Shown here piece by piece: positions 16,656 through 23,526 of a stretch of 34,804 nucleotides of DNA. The notes under the pieces were generated by a model. That model did no database searches. It was not told the origin of the DNA and saw only the letters and a list, made by a program, of their open reading frames with translations. Made by a program: the position numbers and the translations under genes. The first letter of the stretch is position 1; every line of letters starts with the position of its first letter. This DNA is from Candidatus Omnitrophota bacterium (GTDB lineage Bacteria > Omnitrophota > JACPQZ01): positions 1-34,804 of the forward strand of contig JACPQZ010000042.1 of assembly GCA_016190205.1 (NCBI GenBank). Direction: 5' to 3'.

Positions 16656-18161
16656 ATGACCGAGCTCGTCCGGCTGGCGAGGGATTTTGGCTTTGCAGAT
16701 GAATCCCTGGTGTCGTATGGCCCGGACCGCATCAAGGTTTTTTTTGATCTTACGGCCGCCCCGGCGGGGGACGGCAGGCTCTTTGTCATTGCGGGCATGA
16801 CCCCTCCCCGCGAAGGGGTTGGAAAGTCGAGCGTCGCCCTGGCCTTGACGGATGCCCTCAACCGGCGCGGGACGCGCGCGCTTGCGTCCATGAGGCATCT
16901 CTCATTAGGCGAGGCCGTTGGGAAGGGGCCGGGAAAAGGGTACCTGCCGCGCATAGAGCCTGAAGAGGTCTTTCGCTTCGCGGTAAACCAGGACTCGGGC
17001 CTGGTGGCCTCGTGCCAGAACCTTTTCGCAGCGCTCGCAGATCAGGCGCTAAAGACGGGCGCCTTCGCTCTGGATCCACAGAGGGTTTTCGTGAAGCGCT
17101 GCCACGACCTCTGCGACGACACCCTTCGCCGCGCAGGTTTTGTGCTGGCCGGATCGAGCGAGCTGATGGCCATACTGGCCCTGGTGACGGATCCCGATGA
17201 GGTTGAGTCCCGCGTGGGCCAGATGATCGTGGGGTGCAACACCGCAGGGGGTGCGGTCCGCGTCCGTGACTTTGGCGCCGGGCAGGCGGCCGCGCGTATC
17301 TTAAAGTGCGCGGCGCGTCCCGATCTTATGCGCACGTCGGGCGGTTCGCCCTGTCTGGTGCATACGGCCAGTTTCGCGCATACCTCCCTGGGCTCATCCT
17401 CAATCACCGCCGACCGGATGGCCCTGGCGCACGGGGCCGTCTGCGTGACCGAGACCGGATACGGGTCAGAGCTCGGCCTGGAAAAGTTTTTCGACATCAA
17501 GGTTCGTGCCTGGGGGCGCTTTCCCGAGCGGGTTATCCTGGTGGTCTCGGTGAGCGCCATTCGCGCCCAGGGCGACGGGGAAGAGCTGGATTCAGGAATG
17601 GCCAATCTCGGCGCGCATGTGGAAAACGTAAGGAAATTCGGCTATGAGCCTGTTGTCGTGGTGAACCGCTTTGAATCTGATTCCGCAAAAGATCTGGAGG
17701 CATTGGCCTCCGGGATCCGTGCGTTAGGATTCCTTTCCTTTACTGTCTCCCTCGGTGAGAAGGGGCATCCGGGAATGGACGAACTTGCAGAGGCCCTTTT
17801 TGTAAGAAAAGACGCTTGCTCGTTCACCCTCGGCTATAAACTGGCCGCGCCTCTTCAAGAGAAGGTGGAGTCGGTCGCCCGCACGTTTTTTGGAGCGGAA
17901 GGCGTGGAATTTTCGAATGAGGCTCTTGAGGAGATGGAAAACTTACGTAACGAGGGATATGACCGTTTTCCCGTCATGTTCGTCAAAACGCCCTTTTCCC
18001 TTGGCCATGCATCTTCGCTCAAGGGGCGTCCGAAGGGGTACATGTTACCGGTCAAGGATATTTCGTATTGGGCCGGGGCAGGTGTTGTGCGCGCTGATTG
18101 CGGAGGGGTGCCGCTCATGCCGTCCTTCAAAACGGGCCCGGAAGTGATCAACCTGACATGA
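16656..18161 (+). CDS. fhs: Formate-tetrahydrofolate ligase, divergent
   Basis: AGMTPPREGVGKSSVALALTDAL, SSELMAILALVTDPDEVESRVGQMIVG, CVTETGYGSELGLEKFFDIK; about 501 aa, glycine-rich loop diverged from the canonical form. Confidence 0.85.
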   Translation: MTELVRLARDFGFADESLVSYGPDRIKVFFDLTAAPAGDGRLFVIAGMTPPREGVGKSSVALALTDALNRRGTRALASMRHLSLGEAVGKGPGKGYLPRIEPEEVFRFAVNQDSGLVASCQNLFAALADQALKTGAFALDPQRVFVKRCHDLCDDTLRRAGFVLAGSSELMAILALVTDPDEVESRVGQMIVGCNTAGGAVRVRDFGAGQAAARILKCAARPDLMRTSGGSPCLVHTASFAHTSLGSSSITADRMALAHGAVCVTETGYGSELGLEKFFDIKVRAWGRFPERVILVVSVSAIRAQGDGEELDSGMANLGAHVENVRKFGYEPVVVVNRFESDSAKDLEALASGIRALGFLSFTVSLGEKGHPGMDELAEALFVRKDACSFTLGYKLAAPLQEKVESVARTFFGAEGVEFSNEALEEMENLRNEGYDRFPVMFVKTPFSLGHASSLKGRPKGYMLPVKDISYWAGAGVVRADCGGVPLMPSFKTGPEVINLT

Positions 18162-18781
18162 TCGTTGAAAAATCAGTCCAGCGTTTTATAAAGGAGCTTG
18201 CAAGTCCCAGCCCCGTGCCTGGAGGCGGCAACGTCTCCTGTGTAGTGGCGGCACAAGCTGCGGGGCTCGTTTCGATGGCTTGCCTCATTTCGGCGAGGCG
18301 TGAGGAGGCGCTGCGGAAGAGGACGGCCCTCAAGGAGCTTGCGGCGTCGGCGGACGTGCTTATCGATCTGGGATTAAGCCTTGCCGAGCTGGACGCAGAG
18401 GTCTTCACGCGGCTCATCCAGATTTTTAAAACGCGCTTTCGCAGCTCCGCCGAGAGAAGGCGCAGTCTAAGGGAGGCGCTCTCGTTTTGCGCGGCCGCAT
18501 GTCTCGACCTTTTGCTGCTCGCACGTGAGGGGGCCCTTTTGAGCGCGCGAGCCAGCCGGCTCGCCGGGCATGAGATGCTGTCGGAGATCCACACCGCCGT
18601 CTTTTTATGGGATGCTGCGTTTGAAGGCGCCCGGATCAATACCCGCGCGAATCTCGCGTGGCTTAAGGAGCGCGAGGTTGAGCGGCGGGTCCGCGGCTTC
18701 GTTGAGAAGGTATCCGTATCTTACAGGAAACAGAGGGCCATGACGCTCAAGGCATTGCGCGCGCGGGGTGCGCGTATATGA
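18158..18781 (+). CDS. fchA: Cyclodeaminase/cyclohydrolase family protein (FTCD_C; FchA-like methenyl-THF cyclohydrolase)
   Basis: FIKELASPSPVPGGGNVSCVVAAQAAGLVSMACLIS; between fhs and folD; ATG 18158 overlaps the fhs stop. Confidence 0.85.
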   Translation: MIVEKSVQRFIKELASPSPVPGGGNVSCVVAAQAAGLVSMACLISARREEALRKRTALKELAASADVLIDLGLSLAELDAEVFTRLIQIFKTRFRSSAERRRSLREALSFCAAACLDLLLLAREGALLSARASRLAGHEMLSEIHTAVFLWDAAFEGARINTRANLAWLKEREVERRVRGFVEKVSVSYRKQRAMTLKALRARGARI

Positions 18782-19662
18782 AGACTGGAAAACTTTTGAC
18801 CGGCAAGGACCTGGCCGTCAAGATGCAGGTGCCATTGGGGCAAGAAGTATGCAGACTCACCAGGCGTTTCGGGCGCCGGCCGACCTTGGCGGTCATCCGG
18901 ATCGGTGGGAGGAACCATGCCCAGGCCGCCTATTTGAGAAGCCAGGAGCGGCTCGCGTCCCTTTTAAATATCGGATACCGGCTCATCACGCTCCCCGCGA
19001 GGACAAATGAGGCCCGGCTCCTCCGGGTGATTCAGCGTCTTAACCGTGATGCCGCGGTGTCGGCCATCCTGGTTCTCATGCCGGTCCCCCGGCACATAGA
19101 CGTCAAGCACATCATGCATCACATCCTGCCCGCCAAAGATGCTGAGGGCCTGCATTCTGAAAACCTGGGCCGGCTTGTTATGGAGCGCGATCACGTGGTC
19201 CCGCCCACGCCGGGGGCGATCATGACGCTTCTAAAAAGCTCCCGCGTCAATCTTGCGGGAAGGGAAGCGGTGGTGGTGGGCCATAGTCAGGTGGTGGGAA
19301 GGCCCCTGGCCCTTATGCTCTTGAGGGAGCTCGCGACCACGACCGTCTGTCACATCGCGACCTCCCGGCGCGGGCACCTCAAGAAACATGTTGAGAAGGC
19401 TGAAGTACTGATCGTTGCGGTGGGCAAGGCGGGTCTTATTCCGGGGCGTTGGATTCGAAGAGGGGCCATCGTAGTGGACGTGGGGCTCAACCGCAAGGGG
19501 GGAAGGCTCGCGGGAGATGTTGACTTTGAAGGCGCGCGGAGGCGCGCGAGCCTCATCACCCCTGTTCCCGGAGGGGTGGGCCCGCTCACGGTGACCATCT
19601 TAATGAAAAATGTCGTGGAGTGCTTTAAGTGGCAGCATGGAGTGGGGAGGCATAGGATATAA
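18778..19662 (+). CDS. folD: Methylene-THF dehydrogenase (FolD family), cyclohydrolase residues substituted
   Basis: LLTGKDLAVKM, VVVGHSQVVGRPLALMLL, EVLIVAVGKAGLIPGRWIRRGAIVVDVGLNR, ASLITPVPGGVGPLTVTILMKN; YLRSQ in place of YxxSK. Confidence 0.92.
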   Translation: MKTGKLLTGKDLAVKMQVPLGQEVCRLTRRFGRRPTLAVIRIGGRNHAQAAYLRSQERLASLLNIGYRLITLPARTNEARLLRVIQRLNRDAAVSAILVLMPVPRHIDVKHIMHHILPAKDAEGLHSENLGRLVMERDHVVPPTPGAIMTLLKSSRVNLAGREAVVVGHSQVVGRPLALMLLRELATTTVCHIATSRRGHLKKHVEKAEVLIVAVGKAGLIPGRWIRRGAIVVDVGLNRKGGRLAGDVDFEGARRRASLITPVPGGVGPLTVTILMKNVVECFKWQHGVGRHRI

Positions 19663-19667
19663 ACGCA

Positions 19668-19752
19668 CGGGGTCAGGTCTTGCATTATAAGATTTCCGTG
19701 CCTGATCTGTGCATTTGAATACCAAAATGTGATAATGCAAGACCTGACCCCG
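19668..19752. repeat. REP/MITE-like element with 21-bp perfect terminal inverted repeats
   Basis: CGGGGTCAGGTCTTGCATTAT (19668-19688) and its exact reverse complement ATAATGCAAGACCTGACCCCG (19732-19752), 43-nt interior. Confidence 0.9.
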
Positions 19753-19766
19753 ATGACGAGGGCATC

Positions 19767-20636
19767 ATGACTCTTAAAGAGAAACTTAAGCAGGGCAAGT
19801 TCGTTGTCACGGCAGAGCTCAACCCCCCCAAGGGGACTGACCTCACGCAGCTTTATCAAGGCGTGGACCTTTTAAAGGGCAAGGTAGACGCCTGCAATAT
19901 TACGGATGGGACGGGGGCGCTTATGAAGGCCGCGCCTGTCCCCATTGCCTCCCTGGTTAAGGAGCGGGGGATTGAACCTATCCTCCAGCTTACGTGCAGG
20001 GACCGCAACCGCATGGCGCTTCAGTCGGAGCTTTTGGGGGCCTGGTGCTTAGGCGTCCGGAACATGCTGGCCCTGGGCGGGGATCCCATTCAGATCGGGG
20101 ATCACCCGGAGGCCAAGCCGGTGTATGATCTGGACACCCTGGGACTTATCAAGGCGGCCAAGACGCTTTCACAGGGCAAGGATCTGGCGGGGAAGGAGCT
20201 CACCGGCTCGCCTGATTTCTTTGTAGCGGCAGCCGCCAATCCAGGTGCGGATGATCTCGATAGCGAGATGAGTAAGACGAAGGCCAAGATAGACGCCGGC
20301 GCGGATTTTTTCCAGACCCAGGCGGTGTTTGAGCAAGCCGTGTTCGACCGCTGGTGGACGAAGGTCAAGGGGATAGGAAAACCTATGATCCTGGGGGTCA
20401 TCCTCGTGAAGTCTGTCAAGATGGCTCAATATATGAATAAGCACATCCCCGGAGTTCATATTCCCGACCCGCTGATGAAAAAGCTGGACGAAGCCCCTGA
20501 TAAGGCCGAGGCCTGTGTCGAGATCGCCTCGAGCCTCATTCGTATGGTTAAGGGTGCCGTTCAAGGCGTCCACATCATGGCAATCGGCTGGGAAGACAAG
20601 ATCCCCGCGGTGCTTAAAAGGTGCGGCCTTGGATAA
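19767..20636 (+). CDS. metF: Methylenetetrahydrofolate reductase family protein
   Basis: FVVTAELNPPKGTDL, VDACNITDGTGALMKAAPVPIASLVKERGIEPILQLTCRDRNRMALQSELLGAWCLGVRNMLALGGDP, DFFQTQAVF. Confidence 0.9.
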   Translation: MTLKEKLKQGKFVVTAELNPPKGTDLTQLYQGVDLLKGKVDACNITDGTGALMKAAPVPIASLVKERGIEPILQLTCRDRNRMALQSELLGAWCLGVRNMLALGGDPIQIGDHPEAKPVYDLDTLGLIKAAKTLSQGKDLAGKELTGSPDFFVAAAANPGADDLDSEMSKTKAKIDAGADFFQTQAVFEQAVFDRWWTKVKGIGKPMILGVILVKSVKMAQYMNKHIPGVHIPDPLMKKLDEAPDKAEACVEIASSLIRMVKGAVQGVHIMAIGWEDKIPAVLKRCGLG

Positions 20637-21555
20637 AAGTCTCCGCCACGGCTTCCGCCCGCGCGGGGCTGTGACAGGCGTGGGCAGTGTGGCGTGGACG
20701 GAGCCCGAGCGCGCCCTCGAGGTAATCCTGCGTTATTGCCCTGAAGTCCCTTACTGGCCGCAGCTTCCCTTAAGGGCCCAGTCGGAGGGTATGATTGAGC
20801 AGGCCTTGAGCGGAGCTGAATTGAGCGCCGAGAGTGCCGCTGGATTTTTCTATTGCATGGAGCGGCTCAAGGCGGGCCCGCCCGCCTTTCGTTATTTCAA
20901 GGGCCAGATCACGGGGCCGTGGACGCTGGCGTTTCAAACAAAGAAAAGTCCGGAGGCCGTGGTGGATAGCGTCCGCGCGAAGGCCCTGCAGCAGGCGCGG
21001 GAAATTAAGAGCCGCTCCTTAGTGCCCATCATCTTTTTGGATGAGCCCTGCTTGGTCCTTTTGGAAAAGCCCGCATTTCAGACCGAGAGAGAGAATCTCG
21101 CTCCACTCCTTAAGCATCTTATCGATGAACTGAAGGAGGAGGGGGCCCTGGTGGGAGTGCACCACTGCGCCGATGGCGCGTGGGACCTCATGCTCGAGTG
21201 CGGGGCTGATATAGTCCATTTTGACGCCTTTCATTTTATGGATTCGTTTCTTGAGTCACTGGAGGCCTTGCGCGGTTTTTTTCAGAATGGGGGGTGTGTC
21301 GCATGGGGGATTGTGCCGACGAGAGGCGAGCTCAGGCGGCTCAAAGCGGCAGAACTAGTTGAACGGATCCAAATGGCATTTCGAAAGCTGGCTGAAGTTG
21401 GCCAGGAACCCCCGGCCATTTTTGAGCGTTCCCTGGTCAGCCCGGCTTGCGGTCTTGCAGGTCTCGCCCAGGCGGACAATGTATGGGTTTTTGAAATCTG
21501 TCAGGCGGTATCGAGGCTCTTAAAGAAGCAGTTTAGTATAAAGGAGAAATTTTGA
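20629..21555 (+). CDS. MetE/UroD-superfamily methyltransferase-like protein
   Basis: GAVTGVGSVAWTEPERAL, FRYFKGQITGPWTLAF, IIFLDEPCL, VGVHHCADGAWDLM, VSPACGLAGL; TTG start overlaps the metF stop. Confidence 0.7.
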   Translation: MDKSLRHGFRPRGAVTGVGSVAWTEPERALEVILRYCPEVPYWPQLPLRAQSEGMIEQALSGAELSAESAAGFFYCMERLKAGPPAFRYFKGQITGPWTLAFQTKKSPEAVVDSVRAKALQQAREIKSRSLVPIIFLDEPCLVLLEKPAFQTERENLAPLLKHLIDELKEEGALVGVHHCADGAWDLMLECGADIVHFDAFHFMDSFLESLEALRGFFQNGGCVAWGIVPTRGELRRLKAAELVERIQMAFRKLAEVGQEPPAIFERSLVSPACGLAGLAQADNVWVFEICQAVSRLLKKQFSIKEKF

Positions 21556-22524
21556 ATGAAAACGACCGTAGTGGGAGGGTATCCCAAGATTCTCGAGGAT
21601 CAGCTCCTCCGCAAGACCCTTTGGGAGATTGATCGCGAGGGCGGTAAGGCCAATGGAAAGCTGGAAGAGGCGGTTCAAAAAGTCACGCGCTCCGCGATCC
21701 GCGAACAGGAGGAGGCGGGGCTTGACATTGTTTCCGACGGGGCCATCCGCTGGGAAGATGAAATTACGGCTTCCCTAAGGGGAATGGAAGGCATGGAGTT
21801 TACGGGACTCATCCGTTACTTTGACACGAACGTCCTCTACCGCCAGCCGGTCGTGACGCGTCCCGTAAAGCTCAAAATACCGGCCCTTGCGGCCGATTAC
21901 TCCTTCGCGGTGAAAAACGCGAAGAGGCCGGTAAAGGCTATTATGACAGGGCCCTTCACGATCGCGAAGGCCTCGCGGGATGAATATTACCAAAACGGGG
22001 AAAAGTTTGTTTTGGCCTTCGCGGAGGCCCTTCGGGGGGAGCGCGAGGCCCTCGAGCGGGCCGGGGCCAAAAAGATCCAGATAAATGAGCCATTCCTCTT
22101 AAGCGCCCCAGAAGAGTTTGAGCTTTTCCGCAAGGGGTTCCGGACCCTGGCCGAAGGGGCCAGGGCGGAGCTTGAGCTTTTCTTTTCCTTCGGCGATTTT
22201 TCGAAGGTGTTCCCCAAGATCATGGACGTGTGCGTCTGGCGCGTGGGGTTTGACTTAGGCACGGCGCGAAATCCCGAGCGCATCCTCAAAGACAAGGTCT
22301 GGAAAGGCAGAAAGCTCCTGGCCGGGGTCATAGATGCCCGCAACACGCGCCTTGAGACAAAGGAGGAGCTTCACGGAAGGCTCAAGGCGGCCTTGGCTTG
22401 CGTCGCGTCCCAAGACCTCGAGGTCGCGCCCAGCGCAAACCTGGAATTTCTGCCCCTCGACCGCTGCCGCGCGAAACTGAAGAACTTGGTAAAACTGACT
22501 CGTGATTTTAAGGAGGTTGTTTAA
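21556..22524 (+). CDS. Core-MetE-like paralog lacking zinc ligands
   Basis: VVGGYPKI, EQEEAGLDIVSDGAIRWEDEI, KAIMTGPFTIAKAS, KKIQINEPFLL parallel the next gene; HIC replaced by FFS, PDCGLKTR by PSANLEFL. Confidence 0.78.
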   Translation: MKTTVVGGYPKILEDQLLRKTLWEIDREGGKANGKLEEAVQKVTRSAIREQEEAGLDIVSDGAIRWEDEITASLRGMEGMEFTGLIRYFDTNVLYRQPVVTRPVKLKIPALAADYSFAVKNAKRPVKAIMTGPFTIAKASRDEYYQNGEKFVLAFAEALRGEREALERAGAKKIQINEPFLLSAPEEFELFRKGFRTLAEGARAELELFFSFGDFSKVFPKIMDVCVWRVGFDLGTARNPERILKDKVWKGRKLLAGVIDARNTRLETKEELHGRLKAALACVASQDLEVAPSANLEFLPLDRCRAKLKNLVKLTRDFKEVV

Positions 22525-23526
22525 ATGAGGCCCGTTTCAGAATGTCTTCCCACCACTTCGGTCGGAAGTTTCCCCAAGCCGGAGGAACTTAAAACGGCGC
22601 GCACGCGCTTCACGCGCGGCCAGATTAAAAAAGACGAACTCACGCGGCTCGAGAAAAAGGCCACCGAGTTCTGGATCCGCAAGCAGGAGGAGCTCGATAT
22701 TGACCTTGTGGTCGATGGCGAGATGTACCGCGGCGACATGGCGACTTACTTCGCTGAAAACGTGGGCGGGTGTGAAATATCCGGCCTCGTCCGCTCTTAC
22801 GGCAACCGCTACTACAAAAAGCCCATAGTTACGGGTCCCCTTAAGTTTAAGGGGGCGATCACGGTGGAGTGGTTTAAGTTCGCTCAAGGGTTGACCGACC
22901 GGCCCGTCATCGGGATGTTTACCGGGCCCTACACCATGATGGACTGGTCGTTTATCGAGTATTACAAGACGCGGGAGGAAGCGGCCATGGCCTGGGCTGA
23001 AGTGTTGCACGAAGAGGCCGCGGCGCTCGAGCGGGCCGGGGCCCAGTACATCCAGATTGATGAGCCGGCCGTGAGCGTGCGGCCCGAAGAGATGGACCTC
23101 GCCGTCCGCGCCATGGAGGTGGTGGTGGAAGGCCTCAAGGCCAAGACCATCACGCACATCTGTTACGGGGCTTTTGAAAAGATCTACCCAAAGGTCCTCG
23201 AAATCCCGGTGGACCGGATTGACCTCGAGATGTCCAACTCGGGCCTGGATCTTTTGGAGCACATGAAGAGAAATCCGTTCACGAAGGAGCTCGGCCTCGG
23301 CGTGGTAGACGTCCATTCCCACAAGCTGGAGTCCAAGGATGAGGTCAAGAAACGCATCCGTGATGTGATGAAGTATGTCCCGGCGGAGCGCCTCTGGGTG
23401 GATCCGGATTGCGGATTAAAGACGCGCACGGTGGACGAGGCAATTGAAAAGATGCGTGTAGTGTCGGAGGCAGCGAGAGAGGTCCGCAAGGAGCTCAAGG
23501 TAAAAGGAAAGGTATGCCGAAGCTAG
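22525..23526 (+). CDS. Short (core) cobalamin-independent methionine synthase-like protein
   Basis: LPTTSVGSFPKPEEL, GMFTGPYTMMDWSF, YIQIDEPAVSVRPEEM, THICYGAFEKIYP, WVDPDCGLKTRTVDEA. Confidence 0.9.
   Translation: MRPVSECLPTTSVGSFPKPEELKTARTRFTRGQIKKDELTRLEKKATEFWIRKQEELDIDLVVDGEMYRGDMATYFAENVGGCEISGLVRSYGNRYYKKPIVTGPLKFKGAITVEWFKFAQGLTDRPVIGMFTGPYTMMDWSFIEYYKTREEAAMAWAEVLHEEAAALERAGAQYIQIDEPAVSVRPEEMDLAVRAMEVVVEGLKAKTITHICYGAFEKIYPKVLEIPVDRIDLEMSNSGLDLLEHMKRNPFTKELGLGVVDVHSHKLESKDEVKKRIRDVMKYVPAERLWVDPDCGLKTRTVDEAIEKMRVVSEAAREVRKELKVKGKVCRS

Follow-up and report, generated by a model that had tools for sequence, protein, structure and literature searches.

The locus described here raises the question of how methylene-tetrahydrofolate (THF) is converted to 10-formyl-THF when FolD, whose bifunctional members act as both dehydrogenase and cyclohydrolase, has lost the residues associated with the second activity. 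The window, meaning the whole stretch of 34,804 nucleotides of Candidatus Omnitrophota DNA that was analyzed, encodes such a FolD beside a predicted FchA of the FTCD_C family. A FolD that acts only as a dehydrogenase and an FchA that takes the cyclohydrolase step very probably form a two-enzyme route from methylene-THF to 10-formyl-THF. We infer both enzyme activities from the observed residues, the operon, the way the two genes are paired in nearly all of the phylum, and the tie between lysine loss and FTCD_C seen in Spirochaetota and in Clostridia with their relatives.

FolD lacks three residues of the bifunctional enzymes

The gene and the three codons of interest are as follows.

18778..19662, plus strand: folD, 294 aa, FolD-family methylene-THF dehydrogenase, predicted to be without cyclohydrolase activity
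18943..18945, plus strand: Gln56 codon CAG, aligned to Lys54 of E. coli FolD (1b0a) and Lys56 of the human enzyme
19075..19077, plus strand: Leu100 codon CTC, aligned to Gln98 (E. coli) and Gln100 (human)
19144..19146, plus strand: Glu123 codon GAG, aligned to Asp121 (E. coli) and Asp125 (human)

Judged from its sequence, the window FolD is a conserved, intact, and well-kept member of its family. It matches PF00763 (3.8e-24) and PF02882 (1.4e-58) with 85.6 and 197.2 bits, above the respective cut-offs of 32.8 and 27, and its matches to FolD structures in the PDB reach 3.5e-65. Only 1 of 59 positions conserved in the phylum is changed, the median for the other phylum FolDs being 3.3%. A search of the whole assembly (1.65 Mb, 92.8% complete) found it to be the sole FolD.

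The fold family, the NAD(P) domain, the PVPGGVGP motif, and the substrate-stacking Tyr50, present here as Tyr52, are common to the window FolD and to bifunctional FolD and human MTHFD1 DC301 (1b0a, 1a4i). Unlike those enzymes, the window FolD has the catalytic lysine of YxxxK, Gln98, and Asp121 all replaced (E. coli numbering, used below for FolD alignment positions), so that the residue set of bifunctional FolDs is absent. Gln56 closes YLRSQ (residues 52–56, 18931–18945), Leu100 lies within ILVLMP (residues 97–102), and Glu123 belongs to KDAEG, which begins at residue 120. Translation and alignment confirm what the sequence-only reading had reported, namely Gln at the lysine of YxxSK, Leu at the glutamine of ILVQLP, and Glu at the aspartate of DVDG, and its placing of the CAG codon at 18943–18945 is exact. 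Yeast MTD1 (1edz) is a FolD-family enzyme with dehydrogenase activity only; assignment of the window FolD to this type was rejected on similarity: its E value is 2e-6, that of E. coli FolD (1b0a) 5e-65.

Predicted consequences for catalysis

With its dehydrogenase function kept, FolD would convert methylene-THF to methenyl-THF with NAD(P). In the absence of Gln98 and of the lysine on which the second step depends, it would stop at methenyl-THF, which FchA, an unrelated co-encoded enzyme, would hydrate to 10-formyl-THF.

Mutant enzymes bear on this scheme in both directions. Work by Sah in 2015 is said to have left E. coli FolD K54S without cyclohydrolase and with its dehydrogenase kept, human K56 mutants reportedly agree with a loss of cyclohydrolase, and the human Gln100 mutants of Sundararajan and MacKenzie (2002) reportedly lose it too. 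The claim that substitution of the lysine abolishes cyclohydrolase activity, made when only the window's sequence was considered, agrees with the reported human and E. coli mutants, but it does not extend to silkworm MTHFD. There, K53A keeps about three quarters of its cyclohydrolase activity (kcat/Km 0.097 vs 0.13) and Q97A likewise retains it (PMC6443876), so loss of the lysine is not decisive in every enzyme. Structural papers describe the lysine as the general acid/base of the cyclohydrolase (PMC3338484; PMC3368264), positioned by Gln98 (PMC3338484), and they have the pterin bound by Asp121 (PMC3338484; PMC3368264). In silkworm MTHFD, D120A loses dehydrogenase activity with the folate substrate (PMC6443876). 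The replacement of Asp121 by Glu had been read as a further sign of lost cyclohydrolase, a reading that does not hold: it falls at a folate-binding position, and because it is conservative and fixed throughout the phylum, it is compatible with function and gives no evidence of lost cyclohydrolase.

The fhs–fchA–folD operon

The folD gene lies in a series of plus-strand genes comprising folC, mnmE, a diverged fhs, fchA, folD, metF, three small MetE-like genes, and panB. The fhs/fchA and fchA/folD junctions each overlap by four bases (ATGA). The proposed adjacency of folD to an fchA-like gene is borne out, since the gene just upstream belongs to PF04961, with its stop codon running into the start of folD.

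16656..18161, plus strand: fhs, 501 aa, diverged formate--THF ligase (PF01268, 1.7e-107), sole copy in the genome
18158..18781, plus strand: fchA, 207 aa, stand-alone FTCD_C family, predicted methenyl-THF cyclohydrolase (PF04961, 6.5e-28)
18584..18586, plus strand: FchA Glu143 codon GAG, Asp in every FTCD_C sequence compared, 92 from the phylum and 48 others

FchA, the only one found when the whole genome was searched, consists of one FTCD_C domain (98.1 bits, cut-off 24.5) without a fused formiminotransferase domain. In the PDB it matches the methenyltetrahydrofolate cyclohydrolase 7vg4 (8.2e-9), and the NCBIfam FchA equivalog cut-off of 275 bits is missed at 58 bits. PGGG, Asp79, and Asn165 are kept; from the near-invariant FTCD_C set (PGGG, Asp75, Asp142, and Asn164 in the numbering of the 7vg4 fragment), the window FchA deviates only at Asp142, which corresponds to Glu143. 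Three of 11 conserved FchA positions are changed. The activity of the window FchA could be reduced owing to Glu143, which may also be a sequencing error at a single codon.

The window Fhs departs further from its relatives. Of 199 positions that 18 Fhs proteins of the phylum conserve, it is changed at 97, against at most 13% in the others, it lacks the GIKGGAAGGGY signature stretch, and it measures 501 aa against about 557. This divergence suggests that the protein may be inactive or repurposed. Among Fhs, FchA, and FolD of the window, FolD is the best kept at phylum-conserved positions.

FolD and FchA are paired throughout the phylum

Closest relatives were compared within the same phylum, using 242 Omnitrophota genomes at least 85% complete. 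FTCD_C is present in 236 of them and FolD in 235; the six genomes without FTCD_C are also without FolD, and every FolD-bearing genome has FchA (235/235). In nearly all members fchA adjoins folD, mostly just upstream. The 92 distinct FolDs carry Gln (91) or Leu (1) at position 54, Glu at position 121 in all cases, and Tyr50 in all cases. Gln98 is kept in 71 of the 92, and Leu98 occurs in the window FolD only. Replacement of Lys54 is phylum-wide, far from a chance event, and no peculiarity of the window genome: relatives with fchA that retain the lysine, an outcome that would have spoken against the sequence-only reading, were not found among these FolDs (0/92). The lone phylum FolD examined with Leu at position 54 (L177, from G030) sits on a long branch.

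One genome (G239) has a stop-free frame of 8,199 aa (L384:1-15999; C38:1-15999), a giant ORF that fits Omnitrophota (PMC10066038). Its FolD-like NAD domain comes first and is fused to an FchA domain, followed by PanB-like and PPDK-like domains, and the same contig carries a separate fchA–folD pair at another place. The fusion of FolD and FchA domains would count in favor of the two-enzyme route.

Beyond the phylum, lysine loss is associated with FTCD_C

An Fhs alignment run against 85,488 species genomes turned up Clostridia, Coriobacteria, one synergistete, and one spirochaete, and 36 of the genomes so found were searched whole for FolD and FTCD_C. Where FTCD_C is present, Lys54 is absent from all 25 FolDs examined, mostly as Ala54 with Phe or Leu98; where it is absent, YxxxK and Gln98 are kept in 7/7 FolDs (L196 included). 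In an evenly drawn set of 89 Clostridia, Lys54 is kept in all 40 FolDs examined from genomes without FTCD_C and is missing from 27 of 29 FolD sequences from genomes with it. One clostridial genome (G383) carries both FolD types, a lysine-less FolD beside FchA and a second FolD that keeps the lysine. Three of the 27 lysine-less clostridial FolDs, L345 (G439), L346 (G413), and L349 (G463), have Gln54 with Gln98 and Asp121 kept, apparently a separate origin of this glutamine.

The 101 sampled Spirochaetota, in which a sub-threshold FTCD_C match in G287 was counted as none, divide in the same way. Lys54 is kept in 38/38 FolDs examined from genomes without an above-threshold FTCD_C and absent in 8/8 where FTCD_C stands beside folD. 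With FTCD_C elsewhere in the genome, 18 FolDs are without Lys54 and seven have it. Taking lysine-keepers with FTCD_C as a contradiction was rejected for most of them: in three of these seven genomes FTCD_C belongs to formiminotransferase–cyclodeaminase fusions (G310 by domains, G298 and G344 by frame length), and in two it lies beside an imidazolonepropionase-like amidohydrolase (G299, G311). A further lysine-keeper, G427, which is not one of the seven, has its FTCD_C beside an ABC transporter. Such contexts would fit a part in histidine breakdown, or another role, for the FTCD_C of most lysine-keepers. The true exceptions are two Spirochaetota FolDs, L288 (G324) and L286 (G332), which keep Lys54 in genomes that nevertheless have an fhs–fchA pair.

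Taken over Clostridia and relatives and Spirochaetota, all 85 FolDs sampled from genomes without FTCD_C have Lys54, and over the whole survey none of the about 170 lysine-less FolDs comes from such a genome. The proposed co-occurrence of lysine loss with FchA is therefore recovered, as loss is seen only with FTCD_C. Gln98 is kept in 47 of 51 lysine-type but only 41 of 83 lysine-less FolDs (Fisher p = 2e-7, a test that ignores ancestry), and the four lysine-type FolDs without it all fall in an FchA-linked clade. Glu at position 121 is not seen among tree-set FolDs from genomes without FTCD_C.

Few changes on the FolD tree

FolD trees were built without columns 54, 98, and 121. Lysine-less FolDs fall largely in one FchA-linked clade, with lysine-keepers nested inside. 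Several deep branches are weakly supported on these trees, which imply three Lys54 changes with 134 sequences and four with 183; were the loss irreversible, five to six losses would be needed (six in the 183-sequence tree). An initial reading of many independent losses was dropped because the tree shows few changes, and for the same reason the large genome counts are not independent evidence. An independent-pairs test of Lys54 against FTCD_C had too few pairs for significance. On these trees, a small number of deep changes, passed on by inheritance or transfer, accounts for the many genomes.

Position 54 of lysine-less FolDs is occupied by Ala, Ile, Val, Leu, Met, or Gln, and Gln arose at least two times on the tree. 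This diversity, together with the partial loss of Gln98, looks like released constraint once FchA is present. FchA likely came first, after which Lys54, and later the Gln98 that positions it, became free to drift, and the phylum of the window likely settled on Gln54 with Glu121. The two exceptional Spirochaetota FolDs (L286, L288) lie inside the FchA-linked clade and carry Glu instead of Gln98.

Alternative explanations

FolD might still be bifunctional, with Gln54 and Glu121 forming an alternative cyclohydrolase site and FchA being redundant or boosting flux. The near fixation of both residues in the phylum suggests a role rather than drift, the silkworm K53A enzyme retains its cyclohydrolase (PMC6443876), and two Spirochaetota have the lysine alongside Fhs and FchA. 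However, redundancy would not predict the constant company of FchA, which is found in every FolD-bearing phylum genome and, as FTCD_C, with every lysine-less FolD; the related clade, moreover, has Ala, Ile, Val, Leu, or Met at position 54, none a plausible acid/base. We consider a bifunctional FolD highly improbable. Slightly less so, though still improbable, is shared ancestry alone, by which an old lysine-less FolD lineage travels in the fhs–fchA–folD cluster and the residue carries no information on activity. The small number of tree changes (four, or six if irreversible) fits this explanation, and gene adjacency eases co-transfer, yet FolD types sort with FTCD_C in Clostridia and Spirochaetota even where fchA is distant (18/25 in Spirochaetota), and position 54 moved to six residues inside the FchA-linked clade, where lysine-keepers are nested.

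A third possibility concerns the window genome itself, whose cluster could be decaying, or whose fhs and fchA could be repurposed, making its formyl-THF step unlike that of the phylum. The extensive changes in its sole Fhs and the altered conserved positions of FchA, Glu143 among them, point this way. The three frames are nevertheless intact and translationally overlapped, FolD is better conserved than the phylum median, and the genome has no second FolD or FchA; we regard this alternative as unlikely. The two-enzyme route is itself weakened by the few tree events, by Glu143 of the window FchA, by the exceptions G324 and G332, and by the silkworm mutants. The association with lysine loss supports the proposal that FchA supplies the step lost by FolD. 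It does not support the accompanying description as a natural split, since no gene was split and the function would have been handed over to an unrelated family.

Relation to known systems and implications

The closest parallel is C. perfringens, whose FolD, in a study by Aluri in 2016, reportedly acts as a dehydrogenase only and needs FchA; this organism, like the window, combines a FolD-family dehydrogenase with a separate FTCD_C cyclohydrolase and Fhs. The window has the corresponding sequence feature, an FchA co-encoded with a FolD without Lys54. Clostridial FolDs with FchA compared here, which do not include that of C. perfringens, are also without Lys54. They differ in having mostly Ala54, Phe or Leu98, and Asp121, whereas FolDs of the window phylum combine Gln54 and Glu121 with, in most cases, Gln98. 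On this comparison, the window belongs to a two-enzyme arrangement that is already known, here seen at the scale of a phylum and with a distinct Gln/Glu variant of the active site. As far as the published cluster descriptions go, the acetogens Tepidanaerobacter acetatoxydans (PMC3584212) and C. autoethanogenum (PMC9040625) have fhs, fchA, and folD clustered, with FchA and FolD annotated separately as in the window, but the window Fhs is far more diverged than theirs.

A broader account, which we regard as doubtful, would have Lys54 loss mark FchA dependence in several phyla, the Gln54/Glu121 site fixed for dehydrogenase-only work in this phylum, and Fhs decayed in the window lineage, where 10-formyl-THF would come only from FolD and FchA working in the oxidative direction. 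Lys54 is absent in the whole phylum and in much of Clostridia and Spirochaetota, and the link of its loss to FchA is tight enough to give a rule for predicting an organism's need of FchA. Such a rule matters for the reconstruction of one-carbon pathways and for antifolate targets. Natural lysine-less variants also offer a test of the role of Lys54, on which mutagenesis results conflict.

Downstream genes

Downstream of folD lies the next enzyme of the methyl branch.

19767..20636, plus strand: metF, methylene-THF reductase family (PF02219, 2.6e-44)

The folD–metF gap holds a perfect 21-base inverted repeat, CGGGGTCAGGTCTTGCATTAT, at 19668–19688 and 19732–19752, with no further copies within the window; it is possibly a palindromic repeat element or a terminator. 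After metF, at 20515–23526, three consecutive small MetE-related proteins (346, 322, and 333 aa) are encoded, with no full-length MetE there, and they resemble either a split MetE or the core methionine synthases, of which MesB is an example (PMC7857596).
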